Assembly (NCBI GenBank): GCA_029553505.1
Contig: JAKPKY010000065.1
Span: 1-64,000, forward strand
Direction of reading: 5' to 3'
Source: Planctomycetota bacterium
GTDB taxonomy: Bacteria; Planctomycetota; Phycisphaerae; SM23-33
Length of the DNA: 64,000 nucleotides
The position numbers and the translations under genes were made by a program. The notes beneath the pieces are model-generated. The model did not search any database. It was not told the DNA's origin and saw only the letters and a program-made list of their open reading frames with translations. This document shows positions 10,408 through 60,866 of this stretch, in pieces; position 1 is the first letter of the stretch; every line of letters begins with the position of its first letter.

Positions 10408-11568
10408 ATGGACGCAGCGCCGAGGAAAATCCGTATCTGCCAGCTCATCACGGAGCTTCGTCCTGCCGGGGCGGAGCGATGCGTGTTCGAGCTGGCGCGA
10501 CGGCTGGACCCCGCGCGGTTTGACGTGCGGGTGGCGGCGCTGCGCGGGGGCGAGGTAGCCGACTGGCTCGCGGCGGCGGGCGTTCCCATGCGCGTGCTCG
10601 ACGTCCGCGGCAAGTGGGACCTGTTCAAGCTGGCGGGGCTGGTTCGGTGGCTGCGGGTCGAGCGCATCGACCTGCTGCACACGCACCTGTTCCACGCGGA
10701 CCTCGCGGGGCGCATCGCGGCTGCGGCTGCGGGCGTGCCGCACCTGGTCCACACCGTGCACGTGGCGGAGAAGCGGTTCCGCCCTTGGCGGTTCGCCTGG
10801 GCCCGCCTGGGTGCGAGACGGTGCGAGCGGATCGTCTGCGTGTCGGAATCGGTCCGTCGGCAGCACGCCCGGCGGACCGGCTTGGCGGCGGAACGATACA
10901 CGGTGATTCCCAACGGAATCGACACAGACGCCTACGCGCGAAACGAATCCGCCCGCGTCCGTCTGCGGCGCGAGTGGGGCGTCGGCGACGACGAGGTGCT
11001 GCCGGCCTTCGTCGGACGCCTGGACGTTCAGAAGGGCCTGGACGTGCTGCTGGCGGCGCTGGAACTGCTGGCAGCGCGCGGAAAGGCGGCGCGGGTCGTC
11101 TTCGCCGGGCGCGGCCCGCAGCGCCTGCTGCTCGAACAGTTCCTCCACACGCCGGCAGGGGCACGCTGTCGCGACCTGGGTTTCGTCCACGACGTGCCGG
11201 CGGTGCTTTCCGCCGCTGATGTGCTGGTGATGCCCAGCCGATGGGAGGGCTGGCCCCTGGCGGCCGGCGAGGCGCTGGCTGCGGGGCTGCCCGTCATTGC
11301 CACGCGGGTGGACGGCCTGCGGGACGTCGTGGACGAGACGGTCGGGCTGCTCGTTCCCCCGGACGATCCGACGGCGCTGGCCGACGCCATCGAACGCCTC
11401 TGCGCGGACGGGGCGCTCCGGGCCGCGCTGGGCCAGGCCGGGCGCCGCCGCGCCACCCAACAGTTCGCCATCCGGGCGTTCGTCGAGGCGCACGAACGAC
11501 TCTACGAACAGATCGCCGGTGCGATTCCCCCCGGCTGCGGCGACGGCATCTCCCGCGAGGCAAATTAG
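10408..11568 (+). CDS. Glycosyltransferase family 4
   Basis: LRPAGAERCVFELARRL, AFVGRLDVQKGLDVLL, VMPSRWEGWPLAAGEALAAGLPVIAT GT4 motifs. Confidence 0.9.
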   Translation: MDAAPRKIRICQLITELRPAGAERCVFELARRLDPARFDVRVAALRGGEVADWLAAAGVPMRVLDVRGKWDLFKLAGLVRWLRVERIDLLHTHLFHADLAGRIAAAAAGVPHLVHTVHVAEKRFRPWRFAWARLGARRCERIVCVSESVRRQHARRTGLAAERYTVIPNGIDTDAYARNESARVRLRREWGVGDDEVLPAFVGRLDVQKGLDVLLAALELLAARGKAARVVFAGRGPQRLLLEQFLHTPAGARCRDLGFVHDVPAVLSAADVLVMPSRWEGWPLAAGEALAAGLPVIATRVDGLRDVVDETVGLLVPPDDPTALADAIERLCADGALRAALGQAGRRRATQQFAIRAFVEAHERLYEQIAGAIPPGCGDGISREAN

Positions 11569-29829: not shown

Positions 29830-29968
29830 GGTTTCCCCTTTCGATTTTTAAGCGAAAAAGCGAAGGAACCACAAAGTTCACAAAGGACACGAAGGGCAGA
29901 GAAAACGGAATCAATTCTCCCTTGGTGTTCTTTGTGCCCTTTGTGGTGAATCCGTTTTGTTTCGGTCG

Positions 29969-34822: not shown

Positions 34823-34918
34823 ACGGAACTCGGAACTGGGGAACCGGGAACACGGAAAGACCATCTTGCGCGAAGCCTAGTTCCTTGTTCCGAGTTCCTG
34901 GTTCCTTATTTTGGTTCC
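34823..34918. repeat. Dispersed GGAACNC-type inverted-arm element (copy A)
   Basis: Left arm GGAACTCGGAACTGGGGAACCGGGAACACGG, core ACCATCTTGCGCGAAG, right arm of GTTCC units. Confidence 0.75.
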
Positions 34919-37607: not shown

Positions 37608-38113
37608 AGTAGCCGGCAGCCAGTAGCCGGTAGCCGGTAACGGCAGTGTCAGCTTTCGGAAACGGCCTTCTTTCTCTGCAAGTACCCAATATATCCGTTC
37701 AAGAGCTTCAGAAGCTCCAGGCAATCTTCCCGCTTGAACTGTTCCAGGCGTTCCTTGTCGGCGTAGCGTTCGTCAATGCAAACATGAATCTGATCGATCA
37801 GTTCCATCAGGGAACCGCGTGAATGCCTGCAAAACTGCGTATTTTCCTGCCAATGGTGGCGTCCATATCCTTCGGCAATATTGCTTGTGACGGATACGGA
37901 AGCCCGTCGCATCTGGTCGGCCAGCCCCTTCTGCTCGTGGGACGGAAGCATTTTTGCCAGGGCATAGATTCGCTGTCGGAATCTCCTTGCCGCCTTGTAG
38001 ACGTCCAAATCTTCGAACCCGAACGGGCTTGCCGATTGGCCATACTTGCTCATGCTCTGTCCTCATCGCATGATGCATTCCGCCCCGACTACTGGCTACT
38101 GACTACTGGCTAC
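37608..38113. mobile_element. Putative intercistronic cassette with inverted AGTAGCC-repeat arms around a four-helix-bundle ORF
   Basis: Left arm AGTAGCCGGCAGCCAGTAGCCGGTAGCCGGTAACGG 37608-37643; right arm GACTACTGGCTACTGACTACTGGCTAC ~38088-38113, inverted. Confidence 0.6.
37649..38053 (-). CDS. Four-helix-bundle protein (S23/bAvd-like, 23S rRNA intervening-sequence type)
   Basis: FGFEDLDVYKAARRFRQRIYALAKMLPSHEQKGLADQMRRASVSVTSNIAEGYGR is characteristic of the family. Confidence 0.9.
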   Translation of the reverse strand: MSKYGQSASPFGFEDLDVYKAARRFRQRIYALAKMLPSHEQKGLADQMRRASVSVTSNIAEGYGRHHWQENTQFCRHSRGSLMELIDQIHVCIDERYADKERLEQFKREDCLELLKLLNGYIGYLQRKKAVSES

Positions 38114-38736
38114 GATTTTCCTCCGGCCTTCAGGCGGTAGGCGTGCTGGAGGATGGTCTCGGGACTGTCCAGTTCGGGGGCGACGGCCAGCACGCGCTCG
38201 ACGAGTGCGGCTGCGTCGGCGCGTTTCTCGCCCAGTTGCACGAGCACGGCGATGGCCTCGGCGGCGGCGGGGGGCAGTTCGGGCTGGGGCGTCGCGGCCC
38301 GTTCGCCCGCGAACGCCTCGACCTTTCCGTGCAGTTCGGCGATGATCTGCTCGGCCGTGCGCTTTCCGATCTCCGGCAGGGCGACGAGGAAGCGGGCGTC
38401 CTTGGCCTGGATGGCGGCAGCGACCTCGGCCACCGGGCGGGCCAGCGCCCGCAGCGCCTTGCGGATTCCGATTCCCTTGACGGTGGTGAAGACGCGGAAG
38501 AACGCGCGGTCCGTCTCGGCGAGGAAGCCCAGCAGGCGCGGCGTGACCGCGCCGTGCGACGGGTCGCCCTCGTGATAGTGGATGGTGTGCAGGACGACGT
38601 CCTGCCCGACGCGCCGCGCGAGGCGCTCGACGTCGAAGGCGGGCACGAGCACCTCGTACCACAGGCCGGCCCCGGCGTCGACCAGCGCCGCGCCCTCGCC
38701 CACCTGCTCCAACCTGCCTGCGATACGTGCGATCAT
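38110..38736 (-). CDS. ruvA: Holliday junction DNA helicase RuvA
   Basis: MIARIAGRLEQVGEGAALVDAGAGLWYEVLVPAF, GFLAETDRAFFRVFTTVKGIGIRKALRAL, LPEIGKRTAEQIIAEL. Confidence 0.92.
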   Translation of the reverse strand: MIARIAGRLEQVGEGAALVDAGAGLWYEVLVPAFDVERLARRVGQDVVLHTIHYHEGDPSHGAVTPRLLGFLAETDRAFFRVFTTVKGIGIRKALRALARPVAEVAAAIQAKDARFLVALPEIGKRTAEQIIAELHGKVEAFAGERAATPQPELPPAAAEAIAVLVQLGEKRADAAALVERVLAVAPELDSPETILQHAYRLKAGGKS

Positions 38737-38759
38737 AGACCCCGAAGTCCACTAAAGAA

Positions 38760-39416
38760 AACAGCAAGAAAAGAACGGTCCACGGATTCCACGGATTTCA
38801 CGGATTACAAAACAACAAGAAGCAGTCCACGAATTACACGAATTCCACGAAGTAAAACAGCACGAAAAGAACGGTCCACGAATTACACGAATTCCACGAA
38901 GTAAAACAGAAAGAAAAGAATCGTCTACGAATGTCCCGAATTTCGCGGAGGAGTTCAAACAAAAAGCGTTCGAATCAGAGGACGACTCTTCGGGATTCAA
39001 AACTTGCGCATCCGAAATTCATCAGGATCGCCAATTGCAACCCGGACGCCTTCAAATAGGATAGCGCCTGGGCCAGGTGGTCATCCGTCAGGCGGTCCAG
39101 GGCCTTCAGCTCGAGCACGATCTTGCCGTCCACCAGCAGGTCCACCCGGAAATCGCCGCAAAGACACTTCTCGTACCAGACCTGCAGGCCCTTCTCGCTC
39201 TCAAAGGGAATGCCCGCCTTTGCCAATTCATAGCCCATGGCCTTTTGATAGACCGATTCGGGAAATCCCGGCCCCAGGGCGGAGTGGACGCGCTGCGCGC
39301 AGCCGATGACGTCAAAGCTCAACTTCCGATGGAGAATATCCGCCATGACCGATTCCCCTTCGCTGCAATCTCTTCTTTTTCTTTTCGTGTAATTCGTGCA
39401 ATTCGTGGACTATCTT
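38760..39416. mobile_element. Putative intercistronic cassette with inverted CCACGAATT-repeat arms around a GxxExxY ORF
   Basis: Left multi-copy arm 38767-38924 (36 bp GTCCACGAATTACACGAATTCCACGAAGTAAAACAG perfect at 38825 and 38874); inverted right arm CTTTTCGTGTAATTCGTGCAATTCGTGGACTA ~39380-39412. Confidence 0.6.
38975..39346 (-). CDS. GxxExxY protein
   Basis: VIGCAQRVHSALGPGFPESVYQKAMGYELAKAGIPFESEKGLQVWYEKCLCGDFRVDLLVDGKIVLELKAL. Confidence 0.92.
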   Translation of the reverse strand: MADILHRKLSFDVIGCAQRVHSALGPGFPESVYQKAMGYELAKAGIPFESEKGLQVWYEKCLCGDFRVDLLVDGKIVLELKALDRLTDDHLAQALSYLKASGLQLAILMNFGCASFESRRVVL

Positions 39417-39898
39417 CTCCTACCCGCGCAGAGGGCGATGGCCAGCGCGTCGGCCACGTCCGGCGGACTGGGCAGTTCGGCCAGGCGGCAGGCGGACTGG
39501 ATGGCCAGTTGCATCTGGCGCTTGCTGGCGTGCCCGTTTCCGGTGAGGGACTTCTTGACCATGGTGGCGGGCAGGTTTCGGACGGGCACGCCGGCCTGTT
39601 CGGCCGCCAGCATGATCGCCCCGCGCGCGTGGGCCATCAGGATGGCCGTCCGCGGGTGCTTGTAGTGGGCGTAGAGCTGCTCGATGGCCACCAGGTCGGG
39701 CTTCAACTCGGCCAGCAGTTCCGCCAGGTCCGCGTGAATTTGGGCAATCCGCCGGGCGAGGGTCGCCTTGGCGTCGGTGCGGATCGTGCCGGCCTCGGCC
39801 ACCGCCGGCTCGCGGCGTCCGAAGTCCACGCACCCGTAGCCGGTGATGTTCAATCCCGGGTCGATGCCCAGCACGCGATAAGACGACGTCCTTGTCAT
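39410..39898 (-). CDS. ruvC: Crossover junction endodeoxyribonuclease RuvC
   Basis: RVLGIDPGLNITGYGCVDF, AIEQLYAHYKHPRTAILMAHARGAIML, DVADALAIALC. Confidence 0.95.
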   Translation of the reverse strand: MTRTSSYRVLGIDPGLNITGYGCVDFGRREPAVAEAGTIRTDAKATLARRIAQIHADLAELLAELKPDLVAIEQLYAHYKHPRTAILMAHARGAIMLAAEQAGVPVRNLPATMVKKSLTGNGHASKRQMQLAIQSACRLAELPSPPDVADALAIALCAGRRR

Positions 39899-40003
39899 GC
39901 TGAAATCATAAAGGCCAAAGGGGAAAGGGGGAAGGCCGAAGAGGGATTGTCAATCCCGACGCGCCCGGGTTCCCGGTTCCTCGGTTCCGGGTTCCTTCTT
40001 CGT

Positions 40004-41419
40004 TCACGCCCGCCGCCAGGTGGTTCCCTGGGGCGTGTCCATCAGTTCGATGCCGTCGGCCTGGAGCCGGTTGCGGATCTCGTCGGCGCGGGCGAAGTTT
40101 TTGGCCTTCTTTGCGGCCGCCCGCTCGGCGATGAGCCGGTCGATCTCGGCCTCGTCCACCGCGAGGGCCTCTTCGTGCATCTCGGCGACGCCCAGGCCCA
40201 GCACGCGGTCCATCTCCAGCAGGGTGGCGTGGACGGCTGGCGGGGGAGCGCCATCGGCGTTCTTCAGTGCGGCCCAGAAGGCCGCCAGGGCGCGGGGCAT
40301 GTTCAGGTCGTCCTCGACGGCCTGGCGGAACGGCGCCAGCAGGGCCTCGTCGGGGGCCGCCGGTTCGGCGCCGTCCCTGCGCAGATCGAGCACGGCCCGC
40401 TTGAGGTTGCGGTAGGCGTTGGCGGCCGCGTCGAGCGACTCCCACGTGAACGCGAGCTGCTGGCGGTAGTGCGCGTTGAGGCAGAAGTAGCGATAGGCCA
40501 GCGGGTCGTAGCCCTTCTCGACGAGCAGGTCGAGCTTGAGGAACTCGCCGCTGGACTTGCTCATGCGGGCGGTCTCGTTGCCGGCCTTGGGCAGCGTCAG
40601 GAACTCGCCGTGCATCCACCATCGGCACCACTCGTGCCCGAGGGCGCACTCGGCCTGGGCGATCTCGTTGGTGTGGTGGACGGGAATGTGGTCGATCCCG
40701 CCGCAGTGGATGTCCAGCCGGTCGCCGAGGTATTTGAGGGCCATCGCGGAGCACTCGATGTGCCAGCCGGGGAAGCCCACGCCCCACGGGCTCGGCCACT
40801 CCATCAGGCGTTTCTTGTCCGGCGGGGAGAACTTCCAGAGGGCGAAGTCGGTGGCGTTGCGTTTTCCCGCGGACAGCTCGATCCGCGCCCCGGCCTGGAG
40901 GCCCGCGATGTCCAGGCGCGCGAGCTTGCCGTAATCGGGCAGCCTGGACGTGTCGAAATACACGCCGTCGCCTTCGACGACGTAGGTGTAGCCCTTTTCC
41001 TCCAGGGCGCGGACCTGGGCGATCTGCTCGGCGATGTGGTCGGTCGCGCGGCACCAGACGTCGGGCTCGAGGATGTTCAGGCGGCGCAGGTCCGCGCGGA
41101 AGGCGTCCCAGTAGAACTGGGCGATCTGCCAGACGGTCTTCCCCTCGCGCTGGGCGCCGAGGGCCATCTTGTCCTCGCCCTCGTCGGCGTCGCTGACGAG
41201 GTGTCCCACGTCGGTGACGTTCATGACGTGGCGGACCCGGAAGCCGCACCATTGCAGGGCGCGCTTCAGCACGTCCTCGAAGACGTACGTGCGGAGGTTG
41301 CCGATGTGGGCGTAGTTGTAGACGGTCGGACCGCAGGTGTAGAGGCGCACCGTCGGCGGTTCGAGCGGCGCGAACTCCTCCACGCGGCGGGTCATCGTGT
41401 TGTAGAGTTTCAGGGGCAT
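40004..41419 (-). CDS. cysS: Cysteinyl-tRNA synthetase
   Basis: VRLYTCGPTVYNYAHIGNLRTYVFEDVL, CGGIDHIPVHHTNEIAQAE, MSKSSGEFL. Confidence 0.95.
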   Translation of the reverse strand: MPLKLYNTMTRRVEEFAPLEPPTVRLYTCGPTVYNYAHIGNLRTYVFEDVLKRALQWCGFRVRHVMNVTDVGHLVSDADEGEDKMALGAQREGKTVWQIAQFYWDAFRADLRRLNILEPDVWCRATDHIAEQIAQVRALEEKGYTYVVEGDGVYFDTSRLPDYGKLARLDIAGLQAGARIELSAGKRNATDFALWKFSPPDKKRLMEWPSPWGVGFPGWHIECSAMALKYLGDRLDIHCGGIDHIPVHHTNEIAQAECALGHEWCRWWMHGEFLTLPKAGNETARMSKSSGEFLKLDLLVEKGYDPLAYRYFCLNAHYRQQLAFTWESLDAAANAYRNLKRAVLDLRRDGAEPAAPDEALLAPFRQAVEDDLNMPRALAAFWAALKNADGAPPPAVHATLLEMDRVLGLGVAEMHEEALAVDEAEIDRLIAERAAAKKAKNFARADEIRNRLQADGIELMDTPQGTTWRRA

Positions 41420-41547
41420 TTTCGATTTCGGATTTTCGATTTTAGAATGTCGGCGCGAAAAGCGGCGCCGTTGCTGTTTTATAGTTCGGAGTTCGTAGTT
41501 CGAAGTTCGAAGATCGCCTCGACCTTCTTCCGCCTTCGAACTTCGAC

Positions 41548-42036
41548 CTACGACCTTCGACCTTCTTCTGCCAGGCACACCACGGCCAGCGCGGCGATTC
41601 CTTCCTCGCGTCCGACGAAGCCCATCCGTTCGTTGGTCTTGGCCTTGACGGACACGGCCTCGGCGCCGACGCCCAGCAGGGCGGCGATCCGCTCCCGCAT
41701 CGCGAGTTTGTGGGCGGAGAGCTTCGGTCGCTCGGCCAGCACGGTCACGTCGGCGTTTTCCACCCGCCAGCCTTTCCGCCGCGCCAGTTCGACGGCCTGC
41801 CGGACGAACGTCGCGCTGTCCGCGCCGGTCCAGCGCGGGTCGGTGTCGGGGAAGCGCTCGCCGATGTCACCGGCACCCAGCGCCCCGAGCAGCGCGTCGG
41901 TCAGGGCGTGCAGGACGGCGTCGGCGTCGCTGTGCCCGGCCAGGCCCTGCTCGTGCTCGATGCGCACGCCGCCCAGGACCAGCGGCCTGCCGGCGGCGAA
42001 ACGGTGCGAATCGTATCCGAAACCGATTCTCGGCAT
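41548..42036 (-). CDS. ispF: 2-C-methyl-D-erythritol 2,4-cyclodiphosphate synthase
   Basis: RIGFGYDSHRFAAGRPLVLGGV, GLAGHSDADAVLHALTDALLGALGAGDIGERFPDTDP; start 42036 or 42042. Confidence 0.93.
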   Translation of the reverse strand: MPRIGFGYDSHRFAAGRPLVLGGVRIEHEQGLAGHSDADAVLHALTDALLGALGAGDIGERFPDTDPRWTGADSATFVRQAVELARRKGWRVENADVTVLAERPKLSAHKLAMRERIAALLGVGAEAVSVKAKTNERMGFVGREEGIAALAVVCLAEEGRRS

Positions 42037-43280: not shown

Positions 43281-43404
43281 CGCGAATCTTCAAGTAGGAC
43301 AGGCGTCTCGCCTGTCTTGCCGGGAGATCGAGGAGCCTGCATCGGCGCCGACGGGCCCACGCCCGCCGGCGTCGTGCTTTTAGTAGCCAGTAGCCAGTAG
43401 CCAG

Positions 43405-43512
43405 TAGCCGGGAGCCGGGGAAGAAAGGACCCGGAACTCGGAACCAGGAACCCGTTTCCGCGCAGGATGCTTTTCCCGTGTTCCCGGTTCCCCCGTTCCG
43501 GGTTCCGGTCTT
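43405..43512. repeat. Dispersed GGAACNC-type inverted-arm element (copy B, reverse orientation)
   Basis: GGACCCGGAACTCGGAACCAGGAACCCG TTTCCGCGCAGGATGCTTTTCCC GTGTTCCCGGTTCCCCCGTTCCGGGTTCC; preceded by AGTAGCC heptamers. Confidence 0.8.
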
Positions 43513-43524
43513 CGGTCTTCTCCG

Positions 43525-45085: not shown

Positions 45086-45187
45086 AGAAGGAACCCGGAA
45101 CCCGGAACTAAGGAACTCGGAACCCGGAATACGGCAAAACCATCCTGCGCGGAAACGGGTTCCGTGTTCCCGGTTCCGTGTTCCGGT
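45086..45187. repeat. Dispersed GGAACNC-type inverted-arm element (copy C)
   Basis: GGAACCCGGAACCCGGAACTAAGGAACTCGGAACCCGG, core AAAACCATCCTGCGCGGAAACGG, inverted GTTCCNG arm. Confidence 0.8.
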
Positions 45188-45190
45188 CGT

Positions 45191-45517
45191 CTACGATCCG
45201 ACGGCCATTCGGCGGAGGCGGCGCTTGAGGGCGTGGATTTCCGTGCGGATGGCGGCCACGCGGGCCGTGTCCTTGGCGGCGATGGCCGCGTCGCGCCCCG
45301 TCTTGAGCTTGCGGATGGTCGTCTTGATGCGGAGCTTCGCGGCGCCCTCGGCCGCGTGGTGCATGTGGATGCCCAGCACCTTGCACATCGCCGGAAGCAG
45401 GTGGTCCTTGTGCATCGTGCTGAAGCCTTCCAGCGAGTCGTCCTTCAGGCCCTGGGCGATCTCGCGCAGCTTCGCCACCGTCATGTCCTTGAGTTGCTCG
45501 TACGTATAGTCTGCCAT
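45191..45517 (-). CDS. Small basic hypothetical protein, Rho-N/SAP-like N-terminus
   Basis: MADYTYEQLKDMTVAKLREIAQGLKDDSLEGFSTMHKDHLLPAMCKVLGI. Confidence 0.6.
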   Translation of the reverse strand: MADYTYEQLKDMTVAKLREIAQGLKDDSLEGFSTMHKDHLLPAMCKVLGIHMHHAAEGAAKLRIKTTIRKLKTGRDAAIAAKDTARVAAIRTEIHALKRRLRRMAVGS

Positions 45518-45609
45518 CGATCTGTCTCCCGCGAGGTGTGGAAATGGACGTCGCTGCCCGATACGCCAAATCATAGCCCGCCGGCGGAAAAAGGGCAAGG
45601 GGAACAAGG

Positions 45610-45755
45610 CGAGGGACTCGGGACCAGGGAAACGGAACCCGGAATAAGGAACCCGGAACAGGGAACCAGGAACCCGGGTTTCGCGCAGTGCAGTTTTTCC
45701 GTGTTCCCGGTTCCTCAGTTCCGGGTTCCTGTCTTCGGTCTTCGGTCCTCGCAGC
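45610..45755. repeat. Dispersed GGAACNC-type inverted-arm element (copy D, reverse orientation)
   Basis: GGAACCCGGAATAAGGAACCCGGAACAGGGAACCAGGAACCCGGG TTTCGCGCAGTGCAGTTTTTCC GTGTTCCCGGTTCCTCAGTTCCGGGTTCC. Confidence 0.8.
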
Positions 45756-45761
45756 ATCCGA

Positions 45762-45799
45762 CGACCGCTCCCTTACGGTCGCGGCTCTGTAAGAGGTAC
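45762..45799. repeat. Dispersed palindromic repeat ACCGCTCCCTTACGGTCGCGGCTCTGTAAGAGGT family
   Basis: Near-identical copies at 52812, 52941 and (diverged) ~53097; reverse copy at ~48898. Confidence 0.8.
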
Positions 45800-45838
45800 C
45801 GGACTGACCACTCTCCACTATGCCCTCTCCACTCTCCC

Positions 45839-48763: not shown

Positions 48764-49165
48764 CCCCATTTCCGCGCTTATTTGCGGATTTCGCGTCCTT
48801 TTCCGCGCGATTTCGCACCCATTTCGGGGGGCTTTTTTACCCCTTTTCCGCCCCCTCCGCCACGACCAATCAGACAATCCCACAACCGCCCCGCGCGCCT
48901 CTTACAGAGCCCCGACCGTGAGGGAGGGGTCGCCGGGAGTCGCCGAGTGGAAAGCTGAAAGCGGAAAAAGGAAAGCTGAAAACAAAGAGTAGCGAGTGTC
49001 CTCTCGCCGCGTCAGAGGTTTTCGTCGGACACGTTTCCATTGCGTTTCCTGCCATGACGGTTAGCATGTCTTCCTGCGGGCTGGGAGCCCACGGCCCGAA
49101 GGACAGATGCTCGAACGAAAATATGATAGCGCCCGCCCCTGGCCCGCAAGCAGGAGACGCAGACC

Positions 49166-52703: not shown

Positions 52704-52811
52704 CGCGTGGCTTGTCCACGCGCGGAGGAGAGTGACTCGCAACTCTTTGTTTTCCGCTTTCCGTTTTCAGCTTTTAGCTTCGGCCTTCGGCCTTTCCCCC
52801 CGGCGGCATGC

Positions 52812-52849: not shown

Positions 52850-52940
52850 GTCGCGCTCGTCACTCACCACTCTGCACTCTTCACTTCTTCTCCTTCGTGT
52901 CATTCGTGCAATTCGTGGACTGTATTTTTCCGCATGTCCC

Positions 52941-54616: not shown

Positions 54617-54683
54617 GGGTTTCCTGCTCCGAAAGAACCTGTCCACGAAGTTCATTGTGTGTTGCGGAAAACTCGGTCACTCT

Positions 54684-54816
54684 TGCTCTGTAGAAAACAT
54701 TTGTTTCCGGGATGGGTGGCACGCTTTGCTCGCAAAGCGTGTTGCCCGAATTTGCCCGGAACACGGCTTGCAAGCAAGCCGTGCCACCCTCTCTTTTTGA
54801 TGTTTTCTACAGAGCA
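54684..54816. mobile_element. MITE-like element, 17 bp perfect TIRs, 9 bp flanking direct repeat
   Basis: TGCTCTGTAGAAAACAT (54684-54700) / ATGTTTTCTACAGAGCA (54800-54816); GGTCACTCT at 54675-54683 and 54817-54825. Confidence 0.85.
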
Positions 54817-54882
54817 GGTCACTCTCAATCCTCGCACCCTCAAGCTTCGCTTGAGGGTGGCACCCGACGCGAAGCTTCCTTT

Positions 54883-57581: not shown

Positions 57582-58069
57582 ACCAAATCCGAAATTCGAA
57601 GCACGAAATTCGAAACAAATCCAAAACAGACAAATTCAAAACTCCGGTTGCCCAGTTCTGGTCATTCTGATTTCTGGAGAATGGCCCCGAAGATTTTCAT
57701 CAATTCGGTAGATTCCTGGATCAACGAAAGCCTTTCCTTTTCTACGGAAGATTCCGCCGCCGTATGGACAAGTTTGAGCCAGTACCGGCTTTCTTTGGCC
57801 TCCTTGCGGCAAATCTTGATTCGCATCACAAAATCCTTTTTGCTCAGAGACTCATTCGCCTCAATGTAATTCGCGCCGACCGATCCCGAAGCTCTGATGA
57901 GTTGTCGCCCGTCTTCAATGTTCGCCAGTGTCCGCGGCAATGTTTTGGCGAAGGCCCTGACTTTCCTGGCGAAGAGAAATGTCCGCTCTTCTAAATCATA
58001 CTGGCCGGTGTTTTGGGTTTTGGACATTGGAATTTGTTTCGGATTTCGTATTTCGGATTTCGTGCTTTA
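57582..58069. mobile_element. Putative intercistronic cassette with inverted GAAATCC/GAAATTC-repeat arms around a four-helix-bundle ORF
   Basis: Left AAATCCGAAATTCGAAGCACGAAATTCGAAACAAATCCAAAAC; right GTTTTGGACATTGGAATTTGTTTCGGATTTCGTATTTCGGATTTCGTGCTTTA, inverted. Confidence 0.6.
57662..58027 (-). CDS. Four-helix-bundle protein (S23/bAvd-like)
   Basis: DLEERTFLFARKVRAFAKTLPRTLANIEDGRQLIRASGSVGANYIEANESLSKKDFVMRIKICRKEAKESRYWLKL. Confidence 0.9.
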   Translation of the reverse strand: MSKTQNTGQYDLEERTFLFARKVRAFAKTLPRTLANIEDGRQLIRASGSVGANYIEANESLSKKDFVMRIKICRKEAKESRYWLKLVHTAAESSVEKERLSLIQESTELMKIFGAILQKSE

Positions 58070-60774: not shown

Positions 60775-60866
60775 GAGCGGGATTTCGGGATTCCAGGGAT
60801 TCCACGGAGTTCTTGAATTCAAAACCTCCTTGGAATCCCTTGAATCCGTGGAATCCCGCTCTGATT
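60775..60866. repeat. ORF-less inverted-arm element of degenerate GGGATTCCA units
   Basis: AGAGCGGGATTTCGGGATTCCAGGGATTCCACGG - core - TTGGAATCCCTTGAATCCGTGGAATCCCGCTCT. Confidence 0.75.

Follow-up and report, generated by a model that had tools for sequence, protein, structure and literature searches.

The insertion between ruvC and ruvA in the window (the whole 64-kb stretch of DNA analysed here) is a small gene of the GxxExxY family enclosed by inverted arms of short tandem units, and it is well supported that such arms and GxxExxY genes form a recurrent unit. Hairpins that share this design but enclose no gene are abundant in genomes that encode the GxxExxY protein, a predicted nuclease. 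From this distribution we infer that the nuclease may drive dispersal of the hairpins, and we consider it probable that nuclease and iteron-hairpin arms constitute a single co-evolving, hairpin-dispersing unit, analogous to the RAYT/REPIN systems and unrelated to them.

An earlier note on this DNA had described an armed GxxExxY cassette at this junction. The description is borne out, with the gene (38975–39346) lying within inverted arms, as is the placing of the RuvC stop codon in the arm: the stop TAG occupies positions 39412–39410 and its final G is the first base of the 5′ arm GTCCACGAATTGCACGAATTACACGAA (39410–39384, minus strand). On the other side of the gene, a 36-mer that the note had placed at 38825 and 38874, with a period of 49, is indeed perfect at both positions and falls in an array at 38743–38932 for which TRF gives a period of 49, 3.9 copies and a score of 219, the highest of any array in the window. 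Between the 5′ and 3′ arms, 84% of positions pair across a stretch of 38 nt. The frequency of the arm core excludes chance: the host assembly (2.5 Mb, 73% complete) contains CCACGAATTNCACGAATT 16 times and the reversed control not once. A search of Rfam gave nothing at gathering score and two sub-threshold matches, neither on the arms.

Table. Coordinates of the two ruv cassettes, their neighbours and related elements in the window
Feature	Position	Strand	Remarks
ruvC	39410..39898	-	stop codon abuts 5′ arm of GxxExxY cassette
5′ arm of GxxExxY cassette, GTCCACGAATTGCACGAATTACACGAA	39384..39410	-	three 9-nt units; inverted match to 38874-38911
GxxExxY gene, 123 aa	38975..39346	-	profile match, motif residues, predicted fold
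3′ arm array of GxxExxY cassette	38743..38932	-	period 49 x 3.9
Arm copies within 3′ array	38874-38911; 38825-38860; 38778-38806		last copy is a CCACGGATT variant
ruvA	38110..38736	-	start 7 nt past 3′ arm array
Opposite arm of ruvA–ruvB IVP cassette	38085..38113	+	7-nt units
IVP gene between ruvA and ruvB	37649..38053	-	four-helix bundle (TIGR02436/PF05635); profile match
Arm of ruvA–ruvB IVP cassette	37608..37639	+	7-nt units (AGTAGCC type)
Further IVP cassette	57584..58063	-	7-nt arms (AATCCGA/TTTCGGA)
Gene-less hairpin, 9-nt class	29870..29945	undefined	CACAAAG units, inward facing
Solo CACGAATT arm	52893..52917	-	same type as ruvC–ruvA GxxExxY cassette
Gene-less hairpin, 9-nt class	60779..60857	undefined	GGGATTC units

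Homologous genes in other genomes were assessed by a local score between the upstream flank and the reverse-complemented downstream flank, with mismatched pairs as the control. The 60 class-level relatives supplied 87 usable GxxExxY genes, whose median score is 24, compared with 9.5 when the flanks are mismatched; 72 of these genes lie above the 95% control level and 56 above the 99% level. RuvC genes from the same genomes have a median of 9.5 and a 95th percentile of 11.5, with none above 15. The host genome has four GxxExxY genes; every one stands between inverted arms, and the arm sequence differs from gene to gene. The common design is of about three direct units, 8–10 nt long in 73 of 80 GxxExxY arms, with a purine-rich core near CRCRRAK (CACAGAG, CACGAAT, CGCAGAT and CACGGAT are examples). 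In genus g11 (loci L030, L034, L039, L087 and L089) the arms are interspersed with extended runs of a 6-nt unit (ACGGCA) that mirror each other across the gene and represent a further type of expansion.

A scan of public genomes, made with a narrower alignment as query and hence biased to one GxxExxY subclade, returned 80 loci from about 20 phyla, among them cyanobacteria, spirochaetes, Bacteroidota, Chloroflexota and archaea (Methanoperedens, Thermoplasmata). Inverted arms are present at most of 77 cross-phylum loci, in a comparison for which the mismatched-pair control is inflated because the loci share one core; one spirochaete copy has AACCACAGAGGACACAGAGAGCACAGAGG on both flanks. The proteins at these loci are only ∼50–60% identical, and since non-coding arms are alike at this distance beyond chance, the arms appear to be under constraint jointly with the gene. 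The presence of arms at homologous genes supports the interpretation of the ruvC–ruvA insertion as a stop-abutting armed cassette, against which the earlier note would have counted their absence. Its expectation of inverted arms at GxxExxY genes elsewhere thus stands, for 72 of the 87 genes of related genomes as for most of the wider set, but the CCACGAATT type that it had singled out is one of several.

These comparisons make it highly improbable that the arms are ordinary intrinsic terminators or attenuators. Hairpins of this design do lie at gene ends, often followed by T-rich runs, but two arms ∼500 nt apart cannot make a standard terminator, and tandem units with a lineage-specific core, matching no Rfam family at gathering score, would be left unexplained. 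The unit structure and core, together with the lack of such arms at the RuvC control genes, led us to reject this explanation.

The GxxExxY protein of the window matches TIGR04256 (E 4e-37) and PF13366 PDDEXK_3 (E 8e-36), with a family score of 127 bits (cut-off 35) over residues 9–122 of 123. PDDEXK_3/GxxExxY is the sole Pfam/NCBIfam match in the cassette, in which no insertion-sequence transposase was found. The GxxExxY motif is invariant in 26 relatives; the invariant or nearly invariant positions comprise this motif, E40, D69, E79-x-K81, Q93xxxY97 and N110-F111, and the window protein keeps all the motif residues (GxxExxY, D, ExK and QxxxY). A sequence search found no homologue in the PDB. 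The closest solved fold to an AlphaFold2 model (pLDDT 95.9) is that of SSO0001 (Foldseek E 1.7e-4, VIA-align Z 10.2), whose entry title gives only a name and which we take to be a Cas4 protein; lambda-type exonucleases, the Cas4 protein Pcal_0546, MGME1 and Hjc-type resolvases follow. The model thus predicts a Cas4/RecB-like PD-(D/E)XK nuclease of the QxxxY type.

Between two congeners dN is 0.038 and dS 0.27, and the low ratio (∼0.14) indicates that the protein is maintained by purifying selection. The comparison of the window gene with that of the congener (L129/L049) also shows D for E in the ExK motif of the latter (LELKAL to LDLKAL), which may represent a weakened active site. Copies within one genome are few and divergent. 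The gene is found in 8 of 72,556 plasmid records and is absent from phages, a distribution unlike that of an ordinary mobile gene. In these respects GxxExxY resembles resident enzymes of the RAYT type and differs from insertion sequences.

The wider spread of the arms was followed with the pattern CRCRRAKNNCRCRRAKNNCRCRRAK, which detects 1,952 arrays in the 60 genomes against one for the reversed control. This amounts to ∼18 arrays per GxxExxY gene, of which about two are built in, the pattern having been derived from the arms themselves. Arrays are present in 39 of the 42 genomes that have GxxExxY and in 5 of the 18 that lack it (odds ratio 34, p 7e-7) or, at genus level, in 31/33 and 4/17 respectively (odds ratio 50, p 6e-7), p-values that are optimistic even after the collapse to genera because the genomes are related. 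Armless GxxExxY genes (G041, G059) reside in genomes without arrays. When 35 arrays were fetched by pattern alone, 23 proved to be inward-facing hairpins (gap <250 nt), 9 were single and 3 enclosed a longer segment, in one case a GxxExxY gene. Hairpins are also found nested in hairpins (L010, G029); that of L010 (G000:C106, ∼11208–11372) is a CACGAATT hairpin whose loop holds a second hairpin of a different core, CCACAGATTACACGGATG. It seems that the armed unit seeds genomes with thousands of gene-less arm copies. Some genomes have arrays and no detected nuclease, notably G029 (36 arrays) and G053 (9), and in G051, which has a single GxxExxY gene, the listed arrays do not correspond to that gene's arms.

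Hairpins without a gene are far more numerous than those with one, as they might be if they were moved by another enzyme, such as a Y1/RAYT transposase or a repair pathway of the host, and GxxExxY were a trapped passenger. Y1_Tnp genes are indeed common (53 of the 60 genomes), and one adjoins ruvC in G010. Across the 60 genomes, however, the presence of arrays has no link to Y1_Tnp (odds ratio 1.1, p 1), in contrast to its tie to GxxExxY. Arrays are missing from most genomes that have 4–11 Y1_Tnp genes but lack GxxExxY, whereas some are present in genomes with GxxExxY and without Y1_Tnp. A passenger, moreover, would not co-diverge with the arm core, and we regard this explanation as distinctly unlikely. 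Membership of the RAYT/REP family itself was rejected because the association with Y1_Tnp is absent.

Co-divergence of arm and nuclease was examined on a tree of 149 proteins, 141 of them classified by an arm core ending in AG or AT, a split that we drew once the arms had been inspected and then assigned by a fixed rule. The tree requires 5 changes of arm class, compared with 26–37 in 1000 shuffles, and arm similarity declines as the proteins grow more distant (Mantel −0.257; lowest permuted value −0.096), a trend that holds with close pairs left out. Arm type follows the nuclease lineage; this co-divergence could in part reflect shared descent of gene and arms.

The arms might instead act in RNA, in the manner of the 23S rRNA intervening sequence (IVS). 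They would then pair in the ruv mRNA and RNase III would remove the GxxExxY segment, making the insertion harmless to its neighbours, with the nuclease acting on RNA or being a passenger. This reading has a small chance of being correct. In the predicted RNA fold the arms pair with each other across the ORF, the 5′ arm lying in the enclosing stem (z −2.1, a modest value), the gene of the sister cassette at the ruvA–ruvB junction belongs to the IVS protein family, and the 28-bp stem of the Coxiella IVS, which RNase III cuts (PMC4990558), is near three units of 9 nt or four of 7 nt. A stem requires complementarity, however, and neither three tandem units nor a lineage-specific core. The arrays are mostly gene-less hairpins, arms also occur singly and hairpins nest, and the fold relatives of GxxExxY are mostly DNA nucleases. 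A transcript stem removed by RNase III would nevertheless make insertion into an operon tolerable, so that the RNA and dispersal readings could both hold.

The congener G001, whose RuvC is 98% identical, has the same cassette in the same place, with about two 49-bp units fewer in the downstream array, the kind of copy-number variation that the earlier note had proposed looking for. Being common to a genus-mate, the cassette is not freshly inserted. In the G001 copy (L049, G001:C90) a Nextera adapter and an N gap interrupt the GxxExxY gene and an edge is duplicated, as a result of faulty scaffolding. Uninterrupted clusters, for which a search had likewise been suggested, exist in other genomes of the family, where the ruvC–ruvA spacer is 8–32 nt; the cassette is therefore most simply a derived insertion. 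The same junction holds a GxxExxY gene with CCACGGATT arms in G017, a gene-less CCACGAATG hairpin in G026 and a solo CCACGAATT arm in G006. The ruvC stop codon lies within such repeat units in G006, G026 and the genome of L065, that is, at 3 of 31 loci, against ∼0.1 expected from the density of arrays. GxxExxY genes occupy the ruvC–ruvA junction in G000/G001 and G017 and the ruvA–ruvB junction in G042/G051, and IVP genes the ruvA–ruvB junction in G000 and G010; we claim no significance for this concentration, because it was the reason for choosing the window. Elements of several kinds gather in the ruv cluster, as in G010, where a Y1_Tnp (RAYT-like) gene between cysS and ruvC (L054, 889–1356) accompanies the IVP gene between ruvA and ruvB.

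An exact empty site for the GxxExxY cassette was sought in G001, G029, G032 and G034, in which relics and altered neighbourhoods were found but no exact junction, and no target duplication or excision product was seen in the congener and family comparisons. In genus g9, G009 carries a GxxExxY element next to a tRNA gene, which G034 has intact and G032 truncated; G029, of the same genus and without a GxxExxY gene, lacks the element at that tRNA and has dozens of palindromic arm copies elsewhere. Decayed copies such as that of G032, very patchy presence, nested hairpins and arm-only relics resemble selfish turnover. They argue against a host-serving module, in which the nuclease would process or police gene-end hairpins without spreading them, in recombination, repair, phase variation or defence. 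Purifying selection, the few and divergent copies per genome, the near absence from plasmids and phages and a fold family that includes recombination and Cas4 nucleases would all suit such a module, which on balance we judge to be improbable.

The earlier note had also counted two such units in one ruv cluster. Both are real, but the one at the ruvA–ruvB junction represents a class of its own, parallel to the first. As that note had recognised, its gene family and arm sequence differ. Unit length differs as well, IVP being accompanied by units of 7 nt and GxxExxY by units of ∼9–10 nt. IVP genes elsewhere are also boxed (28 of 30 above the 95% control), their arms have units of 7 or 14 nt in 25 of 28 cases, and co-divergence gives a weaker signal (28 loci, p 0.008). 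At the site of the further IVP cassette (57584–58063) the congener G001, 93% identical in DNA, has only the mini-palindrome AATCCGAAATTTGTGCTTCGGATTTCG, and the two genomes thus provide a presence/absence pair for the 7-nt class. Gene-less 7-nt tandem arrays of the GGAACCC, AGTAGCC, CCTTCGA and TTTCCGC types, similar in design to the arms of IVP cassettes, lie in the window at 34824–34906, 39968–39996, 41418–41565, 43382–43520, 45090–45837, 48949–48981 and 52751–52794. A ∼133-bp sequence at 54683–54817, with at least 30 or so copies of 85–99% identity in G001, is probably a separate miniature repeat family. We propose, tentatively, that GxxExxY and IVP could be the cognate proteins of two parallel and very widespread classes of inverted arm (9–10-nt and 7-nt), each specifying and dispersing its own unit.

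If nuclease and arms do form one hairpin-dispersing unit, as we favour, the nuclease would recognise the repeated units of the arm that belongs to it, probably where single-stranded or supercoiled DNA has extruded a hairpin, and would cut beside the arm units, so promoting the copying to new sites of the hairpin that runs from arm to arm. The gene would have been lost from most hairpin copies, or never have been in them, and insertions would persist at sites where they do no damage, as a rule the ends of genes, the two ruvCAB junctions among them. The GxxExxY family, defined by its motif only, gains a partner repeat and a testable function, and is linked to thousands of intergenic hairpins. 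Dispersal of the arms by the nuclease would make this an unrecognised kind of repeat-spreading system, using a Cas4-like nuclease instead of a transposase and reaching the archaea. The natural co-variation of nuclease and arm core provides a set of nuclease/target-site pairs. The proposal of two classes, if true, would account for a large part of the short-tandem and hairpin repeats in bacterial and archaeal intergenic DNA that lack an explanation, including the heptamers of the SPADE survey, which describes them as the most abundant intergenic repeats and leaves their function open (PMC6344855). The IVP class would bear both on the cause of these prevalent heptamers and on the origin of 23S rRNA IVSs, which the Coxiella study calls unclear (PMC4990558).

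In the literature searched, which further papers could extend, GxxExxY is mentioned only in passing, and searches of papers for the repeat strings gave primer-like matches only. No known mobile-element family accommodates the GxxExxY cassette. MITEs and insertion sequences share with it terminal inverted repeats, gene-bearing and gene-less forms and nesting, but the GxxExxY unit has no known transposase and no target duplication was seen in the genomes compared, and its gene copies are divergent, not identical. The Cas4/RecB nucleases (SSO0001, 4ic1) appear alike in predicted fold and in motifs including QxxxY; unlike them, GxxExxY is short, at 123 residues, shows no cysteines conserved across its alignment and has no CRISPR context here. 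The heptamer repeats of the SPADE survey (PMC6344855) and the TAACTGA repeats (PMC4679880) are likewise short intergenic tandem units, and their 7-nt class matches the IVP arms; the available parts of those reports name no partner gene, whereas the arrays described here flank IVP genes as inverted arms, and GxxExxY has a further class, of ∼9 nt.

The 23S rRNA IVS with its IVP/S23 protein also places a small ORF in a ∼28-bp stem, and the ruvA–ruvB cassette carries the IVP family. The ruvC–ruvA cassette differs in lying between protein genes, not in 23S rRNA, in encoding the unrelated GxxExxY protein, and in having arms of tandem nonamers that are mostly gene-less. The closest parallel is with REP/REPIN and RAYT, which share with the present system few and divergent enzyme copies per genome, inverted-repeat flanks, many gene-less intergenic hairpins and a repeat type tied to the enzyme lineage (here 5 changes on the tree compared with 26–37). 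The enzyme here is predicted to be a Cas4-like PD-(D/E)XK nuclease, not HUH/Y1, each arm has about three tandem units of 9–10 nt, and the presence of arrays is independent of Y1_Tnp in the 60 genomes. The likeness in function to REPIN/RAYT is strong, as an analogy.
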